Source: Sphingobacteriales bacterium (GTDB lineage Bacteria; Bacteroidota; Bacteroidia; Chitinophagales; JADIYW01). From it: 64,000 nucleotides of DNA. How positions within the stretch are numbered: position 1 is the first letter of the stretch; every line of letters begins with the position of its first letter. Below, piece by piece: positions 59,579-64,000 of this stretch. The position numbers and the translations under genes were made by a program. The notes beneath the pieces are model-generated. The model searched no databases. It was not told the origin of the DNA and saw only the letters and a list, made by a program, of their open reading frames with translations. The stretch is taken from contig CANHGL010000002.1 in assembly GCA_947460245.1 (NCBI GenBank), forward strand, positions 67,588 through 131,587, written 5' to 3'.

Positions 59579-62500
59579 ATGAATTTCAATCTATTCCACA
59601 AAATTTCAAGGAAAATTCTTTTAACCAGTATACTAGCTTTTTCATTTATTACTTCAGCGAGTGCTGCCAATGAGACATTGACCTCCGGAGCTTTTATCAT
59701 TAACATGGGAGCCACTAATCCTAATACCATAGCAAATGGTGTTAAGCCTTATGGACTTGTTTATGATTTAATTAAGAACTACTATGTACCTGTAAAGTGG
59801 ATAATTGGGCAAGGGAAGGTAAAGGATGGTGCTGACTTTACCTATAATGGTGTTCAGTACAAAGGAGGAACCTTTATTATTCCTGCGGAGTACAGATCAG
59901 CTGCCGTAAATGTAAGAATTGCATTCTGGCAAACCCAGGGCGTTGTAGGTACATCCACCACATCGTCTTTAACTGTAGATGTATATGCCTCACTCAAGAC
60001 TTTCCCACGCTGGACTTTAGATGCCACTAATGGTTCTATAGCTCAAGCTTATTTAACTAATGCAGGTATTACGCTTACAGCGTTCCCGGGTGCTTACAAC
60101 TGGAAAGCAGTTGCAGACTTGGATTGTTGTGACGATTTCTATGTAATGCCGCACGCAGATCCTACCTGGGCAACGCATAACAGATTATACACTTGGAATA
60201 AAACCTGTTTGGGTTCTATCTGGGCTGCTTGTCATGCTGTGAGTGCATTAAGTAACGCTATTAATCCTGCTGATTTGACACAGCAGATGAACTTCTTGAC
60301 AGAAAAGAATCCTACACCTACAACTGTGCCTTATGCAAACAATAGTTTGAAATTATGGGGTACGCACAGTGCAGGTTCTGTGCCTTACACGCATAGATTA
60401 TTTGACGATCCCGTTGCTCAATATATGGGAACAACAGATGCAGCTCAATTAAATGGTTCAGAGCAAATCTATATGCCCGTTCAAACTGGGCCTAATGCAA
60501 AGTGGAATCCCGGAGCAAAGGTTATCGCTTACGACCCAACTCAGGCAGATGTACCTGTCTTAAATCCTGATTTAAGTAATGCTGCAGCTTTATTGGTTTA
60601 TGGTCGTGCATTTGATGATACCACTCGAGGTTATGTAATGTACGAAGCAGGACACTCCCATAATAAAGGTACAGTTGCAGACATTGCAGCACAGAGAGCA
60701 TTTTTCAACTTTAGTTTTGTTCAGTTAATTATTAAAACACCACAATTAGTAACCGGTGGGGTAACGGTTAACCAAACAATAACTGGAGGGGCTTCCGTAA
60801 ATCCTACGGTGTCTGCAAGTTCTCCATTGCCGGGAATTACGTTTACTTATCAGTGGACGTCCAGCTGCGGAGGTTCTTTTGTCAATGGGACTACAGCGAA
60901 TCCAACTTTTATTGCGCCTACAGTTTCTTCTAATACACCTTGTTCTATTTCATGCTTGGTTTCTGATCCTTGTGGCAGGCAATCTTTCACCAGTATTCCT
61001 ATTATAATTTTAGCACCTCCGGTTGGACCAATGCCTGTTAATGATACAGTCAATGTTCCTTCTGCTTGTGCAACTACTGCACCACCGGTTACTTTTAATG
61101 TGTTAACTAATGATTCACTTACGGCGGGTAATAGTGTAACTGTTTCATTGTTGGGTTCTGGTTCGAATGGAACTTTTGTTGATAATGGAAATGGAAGCAT
61201 TACCTATACTGCAAATCCAGGTTTTATAGGAACAGATACAGCAAGATACCGTGTATGTGATAACGTAACAACATTGTGTTCTACTGCTTTAATAATTGTA
61301 AAGATTGGAACACTGGATGCCAATGGTTGCGGTCCGGATGAATTTTATGGTGTAGTAGCTGCCGGAGCTGCGGATAGTTCAATTACTTCCTTAACGAACA
61401 GTATTGGTACTCCAGACAATGCATTAGATGTTGCCGATGCTACTTTAGCAGCGTTTAACTCAACAGCAGACTCACTTACACTACGTTTAGATAATACGCT
61501 TGGTCTAAATGATTCTTTACAAATCACTTGGGCAAGCAATGGTGCCGGTTTAGCAACTATTAATGTTAAGGTTGCTGCAACACAAGCGGGTCCATATATT
61601 AATTTAGGTAATTTCACACTTAGTGGTACTGCTTTAGGTATTACGTATATTAATACTGCAGGAAACGTAAATTATGTTTGTATAAAGCAGATAGGTGCGC
61701 AGGCACTCAACATTGACGCAGTAGAGTTTGATATAAAGGGATGTGTGTCAAAATATCCTGCTGTTTCCAGTCAATCTTACAATATATATGAAGATAGCTG
61801 TACCACTTTAAGCGTTTTAGATGGTGCAGTTGATCCATTAGGGGGGACTTTATCGGTGACAAGAGTAGTTACCCAACCCAGAATTGGTAAGATTAGTATT
61901 AACCTGGATAATACCATTACTTATTGTAGCAATAGAGATGTTAGCGGCAGCGATACAGTATATATACAAGTGTGCAGTTCATCAGGCTATTGTTCTACAG
62001 AAATGTTGACCTTCAATGTAGCTGATGATGGCTGTCCTTCCGGGTCTTATAAGCCTTCTTCTAGTATTACAACACTAACACTTAATACCTCTACTACTAT
62101 AGATGATGCAACCTTAAATCAAGAGGGAGCGGCTGCAACTACACCAGATGGTACAGGCAACTTCTTCCTAGTTGGTAAAAAGCCAAATAAAGTGAAACGT
62201 GGCGTAATGCGTTTTGATGTTTCTACCATTCCTACTAATGCTTTGGTGCAGTCAGCCGTATTGGCTTTAAAAACTTCTACAGGAGGTGAGACACAGAAAG
62301 GACCATACACCATGACCATAAGTGCTCAAAAGTTATTACAGTCATTTGTTGAAGCACAAACTACCTGGAACTTAAGAAGTACCGGAAATAACTGGACACC
62401 TGCAGGTGGTTCATTTAATTCAACTTCCTTATCAAGTGCAATAGTTACGATACCGAGCGCTAAAACATCTCAAACTGTTACTTTCAATTTATCTGGGATT

Positions 62501-64000
62501 ACGCAGGATTGGGTTACTACTCCTGCTAATAACATAGGTATTCTTTTAAAACAACTGGATGAAACCAGAATAGATAAGAAGATTGGTATTTATAGTAGTG
62601 AAAATGGTACAGCAGGGAACAGACCTCAGTTTGTAGTAAAATATTCTACACCTTTAACATGTACTCCAATTTCTAATCATGCGCCTCTGGCACAACCGGA
62701 CTTTGGTACAACAAACTCAACTACACCGGTTACCATAGCCGTTCTTCCAAATGATGGAGATGTGGATACCTTGAGTTCCATATCACTTACTAGCATAATA
62801 TCTGCACCTTCTTCCGGAACGGCAGTAGTTTCAGGAAGCAATGTTATATATACTCCTGCTTCTGGGGTAACGGGAACATTTACATTTACCTATAGAATAG
62901 TAGATAATATTGGAGCTGCAGATACCGCTAAAGTAACGGTTACTGTAACCAACGCTGCACCGAATGCATTAGCAGACAGAGATTCTATGAATAGTAATGT
63001 TACTGCTTACTCCATAAGCGTAAAATCTAACGACGTAGATCCTGAAGGAAATCCAACAACTGCACCAACCATTATAATCAGTCCTCAAAATGGTACAGCT
63101 CTGGTTTCAGGTAATAATATTTTGTATACTCCAAATCCTAATTTCATCGGATTTGATACCTTGATTTATCAGATATGTGAAACGGCTGGAGGAGCTTGCA
63201 GTGAGCCTGCGTTATGTGATACAGCCATAGTTTATCTGAAAATAAAAAATCAGGCACCTGTTGCAATCAGAGATTTAAAATCTACTAATCAATGTCAGCC
63301 TGCAATTATTGATGTTTTAAGCAATGATAACGATCCTGAAAGTGGTTCTTTAACGGTTACGGTAACTACTGCTCCTGCAAATGGTACAACTTCAGTTTCC
63401 GGTGGACAAATTACCTATACTCCAAATCCTGGGTTCAGTGGTCCAACTGATCAGTTTATATACACCTTGTGTGATGATGCATCTCCGTCTCTATGTGATA
63501 CAGCAAAAGTAATTGTATCTATAAATGCTTCTCCACAAAACACCAAGCCTATTGCTTTGGATGATTATGGTGACGGTATAACTAACAACCTAGTGTATTG
63601 GGATATCTTAACGAATGATTCAGATCCAAATAATGATGTGATTGTTGCTTCTCTTCCTGGTGGAATACTACAACCATCAAATGGTAGTGTATCAATTCTA
63701 TCTAATGGGTTATTGTTATATACACCAGCGAGCGGATTTAGTGGAACAGATTCCATGGATTATGTGATCTGTGATAATTTTCCTACACCTCCGGGTGGTT
63801 GTCCTCCAACACCTAGCTTATGTGACACGGCAAGATTCTATGTAACTATTACAGGTCCTGCTGTTGACGGAAATCCTACAGCCATCAGAGATACAGCTGT
63901 TACCAATGAAGATACACCTGTTAACATAAATGTATTGGCAAACGATAGTTTTGGTATTAATGGACCAAGCTTATCAGCAATTACGATTACTGATAATGCT
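59579..64000 (+). CDS. giant secreted multidomain surface protein, 3' truncated by the window
   Basis: The frame runs open for 1474 codons from ATG 59579 to the window edge. A signal peptide (about 12-29, ending SASA) comes first. The N-terminal region (about 35-385) has DDFYVMPHADPTW, SIWAACHAVSALSN (Cys218) and YVMYEAGHSHNKGTV (His359, His361), resembling a class-I glutamine-amidotransferase-like fold. A PKD/Ig-like module follows (to about 480), then an Ig/cadherin-like repeat (about 482-575). Next come a jellyroll-like part (about 576-722), a second repeat, and a DNRLRE-type domain (about 820-1020; KRGVMRFDVS, ITQDWVTTPANNIGILLK). At least five more cadherin-like repeats follow (ILTNDSDPNND, ITYTPNPGFSG). 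It is probably a T9SS-exported adhesin; the sorting domain lies beyond the window. Confidence 0.85.
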   Translation, partial: MNFNLFHKISRKILLTSILAFSFITSASAANETLTSGAFIINMGATNPNTIANGVKPYGLVYDLIKNYYVPVKWIIGQGKVKDGADFTYNGVQYKGGTFIIPAEYRSAAVNVRIAFWQTQGVVGTSTTSSLTVDVYASLKTFPRWTLDATNGSIAQAYLTNAGITLTAFPGAYNWKAVADLDCCDDFYVMPHADPTWATHNRLYTWNKTCLGSIWAACHAVSALSNAINPADLTQQMNFLTEKNPTPTTVPYANNSLKLWGTHSAGSVPYTHRLFDDPVAQYMGTTDAAQLNGSEQIYMPVQTGPNAKWNPGAKVIAYDPTQADVPVLNPDLSNAAALLVYGRAFDDTTRGYVMYEAGHSHNKGTVADIAAQRAFFNFSFVQLIIKTPQLVTGGVTVNQTITGGASVNPTVSASSPLPGITFTYQWTSSCGGSFVNGTTANPTFIAPTVSSNTPCSISCLVSDPCGRQSFTSIPIIILAPPVGPMPVNDTVNVPSACATTAPPVTFNVLTNDSLTAGNSVTVSLLGSGSNGTFVDNGNGSITYTANPGFIGTDTARYRVCDNVTTLCSTALIIVKIGTLDANGCGPDEFYGVVAAGAADSSITSLTNSIGTPDNALDVADATLAAFNSTADSLTLRLDNTLGLNDSLQITWASNGAGLATINVKVAATQAGPYINLGNFTLSGTALGITYINTAGNVNYVCIKQIGAQALNIDAVEFDIKGCVSKYPAVSSQSYNIYEDSCTTLSVLDGAVDPLGGTLSVTRVVTQPRIGKISINLDNTITYCSNRDVSGSDTVYIQVCSSSGYCSTEMLTFNVADDGCPSGSYKPSSSITTLTLNTSTTIDDATLNQEGAAATTPDGTGNFFLVGKKPNKVKRGVMRFDVSTIPTNALVQSAVLALKTSTGGETQKGPYTMTISAQKLLQSFVEAQTTWNLRSTGNNWTPAGGSFNSTSLSSAIVTIPSAKTSQTVTFNLSGITQDWVTTPANNIGILLKQLDETRIDKKIGIYSSENGTAGNRPQFVVKYSTPLTCTPISNHAPLAQPDFGTTNSTTPVTIAVLPNDGDVDTLSSISLTSIISAPSSGTAVVSGSNVIYTPASGVTGTFTFTYRIVDNIGAADTAKVTVTVTNAAPNALADRDSMNSNVTAYSISVKSNDVDPEGNPTTAPTIIISPQNGTALVSGNNILYTPNPNFIGFDTLIYQICETAGGACSEPALCDTAIVYLKIKNQAPVAIRDLKSTNQCQPAIIDVLSNDNDPESGSLTVTVTTAPANGTTSVSGGQITYTPNPGFSGPTDQFIYTLCDDASPSLCDTAKVIVSINASPQNTKPIALDDYGDGITNNLVYWDILTNDSDPNNDVIVASLPGGILQPSNGSVSILSNGLLLYTPASGFSGTDSMDYVICDNFPTPPGGCPPTPSLCDTARFYVTITGPAVDGNPTAIRDTAVTNEDTPVNINVLANDSFGINGPSLSAITITDNA

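Follow-up and report, generated by a model that had tools for sequence, protein, structure and literature searches.

A predicted glutamine amidotransferase-like head domain with invariant cysteine and histidine residues on giant repeat proteins of Bacteroidota

The window analyzed here, a stretch of 64,000 nucleotides from a Sphingobacteriales bacterium, encodes the beginning of a giant repeat protein whose N-terminal head is predicted to adopt a class I glutamine amidotransferase-like (GATase-like) fold and belongs to a family in which one elbow cysteine and two strand-end histidines are invariant. We favor, at a probability of roughly 55%, the reading that this head is an exported Cys-dependent hydrolase or transferase carried on an adhesin-like surface stalk, its catalytic action being what we infer from these features. 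The fold itself is known; a literature search of open-licence papers returned nothing on the head domain, and these papers and the named family libraries that we searched yielded no description of the family or of its export, fusion to giant repeats and tie to the ~420-residue protein described below.

The open reading frame, listed at 59579–64000 on the forward strand, has no stop before the end of the window; in the genome it carries on until contig C2 ends (132599), after ~1811 codons and still within repeats. Residues 1–384 (59579–60730) comprise a signal-peptide-like N-terminus, which the N-termini of relatives resemble, and a two-part domain (Table 1). The stalk is recognized by Pfam PF17963 (1.9e-74) and by NCBIfam NF012211 (9.5e-55) and NF033679 (2.2e-24), with the repeat families starting only past the head, whereas residues 1–389 gave no Pfam or NCBIfam match; the head is thus distinct from the repeats, as originally claimed. 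A comparison of the head with PDB sequences likewise recognized nothing. The three motifs singled out in the original prediction, DDFYVMPHADP (residues 185–195), SIWAACHAVS (213–222) and YEAGHSHNKG (355–364), lie where it placed them, and the codons of Cys218, Glu356, His359 and His361 were verified in the sequence. The neighboring genes (LemA, TPM domains, a recombinase and a dehydroquinase) offered no functional hint and no operon partner, and a divergent neighbor gene had no Pfam match.

Table 1. Features of the open reading frame, in window coordinates
Feature	Position	Strand	Basis
Signal-peptide-like N-terminus MNFNLFHKISRKILLTSILAFSFITSASA, residues 1–29	59579..59665	+	Read from the sequence: Lys/Arg, hydrophobic stretch, ASA
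Small alpha/beta subdomain, residues 30–140; invariant Y58-G59, W74, K80, D86	59666..59998	+	Separate prediction and alignment
Class I GATase-like domain (predicted), residues 141–384	59999..60730	+	Model residues 116–363 align to ThuA-like and glutaminase structures
Cys184, invariant, directly ahead of the strand ending at His192	60128..60130	+	71/71
His192, invariant; its loop takes the position of the GATase Gly-Gly oxyanion loop	60152..60154	+	71/71; model
SIWAACHAVS, nucleophile-elbow-like; Cys218 at 60230–60232	60215..60244	+	Model strand and helix; 71/71
YEAGHSHNKG; invariant His359 at 60653–60655; Glu356 and His361 variable	60641..60670	+	71-member alignment; follows model strand 327–330
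Repeat stalk, Ig-like, tandem-95/Big_9/Cadherin; runs beyond the window	60731..64000	+	Pfam, NCBIfam
Single DNRLRE domain within the stalk	about 62105–62638	+	Family matches

A scan of species genomes recovered 12 loci encoding relatives, with best-segment identities of 39–68%, in Chitinophagaceae, Runella, Jiulongibacter, other Bacteroidota and one Trueperaceae MAG. A narrow profile (A1) run over 395 genomes of the phylum had matched the window's genome only; the rarity that this suggested was overturned in the order and class by a broader profile (A3), built after adding divergent members from the genomes of the first scan, which detected relatives, complete or partial, in 38 of 398 genomes belonging to the order and in 32 of 395 belonging to the class (about 8–10%). 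Together with the 12 loci, these frequencies place the observation beyond chance, and they answer the proposed search for other proteins with this N-terminus. The same profile matched 5 of 111 genomes of Deinococcota, the phylum of the Trueperaceae MAG, and four loci from this phylum, additional to the 71 aligned members discussed below, have both the elbow Cys and the GGH motif. Viral contigs and plasmids searched by sequence had no matches to the head. Open reading frames with full matches in the order and class searches range from 553 to 7307 aa, and the domain often occurs in long exported proteins, though not always at the N-terminus (e.g., L034, L013 and L008); a head of this kind on a secreted repeat protein is therefore less unusual than had been supposed. 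A tree of 71 members (mean pairwise identity 34%, lowest 18%) resolves into a clade of 43 rows and one of 28, supported at 100/100. Each clade includes one member from the window's genome, the divergent second copy lying on contig C48 (L018:7249-10560) with repeats downstream.

An AlphaFold2 model computed from 13 sequences reached a pLDDT of 77 and a pTM of 0.81 (model Cys193 and His334 are Cys218 and His359, respectively). Structural alignment against the PDB placed model residues 116–363 closest to ThuA-like proteins (Pfam PF06283; PDB 4jqs, 4pxy and 1t0b), with Z-scores of 13.4, 13.2 and 12.2, the best match being 4jqs (Z 13.4, 212 residues, 3.6 A); glutaminases, YaaE/Pdx2-type, HisH and TrpG among them, followed at Z about 10–12. 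Taken over the ThuA-like, PdxT, HisH and TrpG matches, the alignments cover 155–213 residues at Z 10–13.4, and the model thereby supports the class I GATase/ThuA-like fold of the original prediction. Foldseek by itself was weak (TM-scores of ~0.3 on the query), and the fold assignment therefore depends on the second aligner together with the elbow and the topology. In the model, strand 188–191 is followed by Cys193 and by a helix (193–200) that begins at this Cys; in the alignment, the position two after Cys218 is small (A/G/S/T) in 71/71 and the one two before it is small (A/S/V/G/T) in 66/71. Both agree with a small-x-Cys-x-small elbow and with the elbow-like position claimed for Cys218. Strand 162–165 stops right ahead of Pro166-His167 (the latter being His192), and strand 327–330 leads to His334 and the final helix, with model confidence low around this His (pLDDT under 50 for 333–339). 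The first 119 residues, covering the first subdomain and predicted alone, gave a pLDDT of 88, a pTM of 0.84 and a ferredoxin-like arrangement; its best PDB match, at Z 6.5, is too low for naming a family. Viral fold matches were set aside as poor superpositions.

Ten positions are without variation across the 71 members: Y58, G59, W74, K80, D86, C184, H192, C218, Q281 and H359. Cys218 and His359 thus withstood the alignment check; Glu356 (28/71) and His361 (13/71, the position being Y/H/L/I/F) fared worse and cannot be counted as constant. Position 191 varies (P/A/E/G/M), and 192 is always His. Glu225 is kept in 66/71 relatives and is Ser in the window protein (60251–60253); no conserved acid partner emerged from the alignment. 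We propose that the elbow Cys218 and His359, which closes the last strand, would cluster in space as a conserved active site, probably together with His192. This proposal draws on the invariance of all three across both clades and on the retention of the Cys and one His in the ~420-residue family; the low model confidence near His359 is one of its chief weaknesses. The invariance of Cys184 and Cys218 (both 71/71) could alternatively reflect a structural disulfide that serves stability, for which export into a presumably oxidizing space would be suitable. We regard this as improbable: in the model Cys184 precedes the start of one strand and Cys218 occupies the C-terminal end of a second, which would set them far apart if these are neighboring parallel strands, the ~420-residue family retains the elbow Cys without Cys184, and a disulfide leaves the invariant His residues unexplained.

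The class I glutamine amidotransferases (the YaaE/Pdx2, HisH, TrpG, GuaA and CTP synthase glutaminases; Z about 10–11.6) share with it the Rossmann-like fold, the elbow Cys and a His past the last strand, and these likenesses are what would favor a true glutamine amidotransferase or glutaminase. Such an identity is highly improbable. The His-x-Glu that follows the last strand in these enzymes is missing, since the residue two past His359 is variable and Glu356 precedes the His; PH stands in place of the PGG oxyanion loop; and only the head has the extra N-terminal subdomain, export and fusion to repeats. With HxE and Gly-Gly both absent, the head is GATase-like by predicted fold and very probably not a glutamine amidotransferase. 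In ThuA-like proteins, as in the head, a GH motif comes after a strand close to the C-terminus. The ThuA relatives compared here differ in having His at the elbow position (GGGFVGIHAA), where the head has Cys, a point on which, as with the absent HxE and Gly-Gly, the original prediction fails. ThuA membership by sequence found no support: none of 13 head-family members had a Pfam match at E 5, and hhalign of the head against 14 ThuA relatives gave E 0.14, with shuffles of a less clean ThuA alignment at 0.29 or worse. The PfpI/DJ-1 family has ACHG at the elbow, which resembles the head; its chemistry is a misfit, as the His right after its nucleophile Cys corresponds to His219, present in 37/71. 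In clan CD peptidases (gingipain, caspase), a His ends one strand and the Cys the next, like His192 and Cys218. This order agrees with the head; there is no clan CD protein among the structural matches listed, and we treat the likeness as a resemblance only.

A weak match (L094) led to an exported protein of ~420 aa that 108 of 148 Bacteroidota genomes encode, that of the window included (family members L094 and L095–L124; own-genome copy G000:C10:6936-8171, L102 and L125). It has no Pfam, NCBIfam or PDB match, and 118 positions are invariant in 30 members. Public records probably name it 'asparagine synthetase B'. The protein of that name in a regulator study of Bizionia argentinensis (PMC9478572) may be the same. 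Aligned with hhalign, the head and ~420-aa families matched at 97.5% and E 8.7e-12, with five column-shuffled controls at 0.24 or worse. In the full alignment the elbow Cys residues of the two families correspond, as do the GGH His residues, and both occur in 30/30 aligned members of the ~420-aa family. The confident part of this alignment stops at the elbow, and the proposed equivalence of the GGH His draws its support from the unmasked alignment and the matching motif. Common to both families are AYG, a W, the elbow Cys, GGH and a late Asn; the ~420-aa protein differs in standing alone without repeats, in its own LHLHHEDFTG and extra His/Asp/Glu motifs, and in reading YDW in the region aligned with Cys184.

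These conserved residues also bear on the reading that ranks next, which we consider less likely, namely that the head is a non-catalytic binding module, using its fold and conserved Cys and His to hold a ligand or metal, the whole protein being an adhesin. The domain does sit on adhesin-like repeat stalks, sometimes in mid-protein, and among the PDB structural matches the same fold serves as an accessory domain of GH42 and other enzymes; two invariant Cys and two invariant His could bind metal, and a conserved acid is absent, as are the HxE and Gly-Gly of glutaminases. Against it, an elbow Cys and strand-end His constant in 71/71 and shared with the ~420-aa family would be unexpected in a structural or variable-ligand module. 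Between the surface enzyme and the dead enzyme that had been offered as options, conservation speaks against a plainly dead one, while being compatible with catalysis rather than proof of it.

Under the preferred reading of a Cys-dependent hydrolase or transferase, the gene would produce a giant exported protein, probably passing through Sec and then type IX secretion, whose first ~360 mature residues form the small alpha/beta subdomain and then the GATase-like domain, followed by the long beta-repeat stalk. The likeliest action would be Cys-dependent hydrolysis or transfer at the cell surface, for example on an extracellular amide, ester or glycan. The C-terminus of the window protein lies beyond the contig, and its export through T9SS is suggested by the tails of relatives and by SprA: T9SS type A sorting domains (TIGR04183) occur at the C-termini of L005, L006, L011 and L013 (there is none in L003 or L009), and the window's genome encodes the SprA translocon (TIGR04189, 2419 bits). 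More tentatively, at somewhat below even odds, the head and the ~420-aa protein might form a single superfamily, as yet unnamed, of exported Cys/His enzymes, a stand-alone core protein in most Bacteroidota that was repeatedly mounted on giant surface fibers, with a third conserved His replacing the glutaminase oxyanion loop, which would be a catalytic arrangement new to the GATase fold. Work on Bacteroidota commonly passes over giant repeat proteins as adhesins; should the recurrent head prove to be an enzyme, these proteins would also act on their surroundings. The link to a nearly phylum-wide exported protein provides one residue set (Cys218, His359 and His192) that can be mutated in both families, making the function of either testable.

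The architectures of individual relatives vary further. The second giant protein of the window's genome (L018) carries repeats of other kinds, Ig_7 and QCDGAGNTAALQAWL, and is likewise cut by a contig end. G451:C119 (L047), G952:C4 (L071) and G727:C7 each have two domain copies separated by a few kilobases at most, which suggests tandem duplication in several genomes. The Deinococcota members L158, L159 and L161 keep the Cys and His and, judged by eye, continue past the domain with a SpaA-type-like and then a lamin-tail-like domain.
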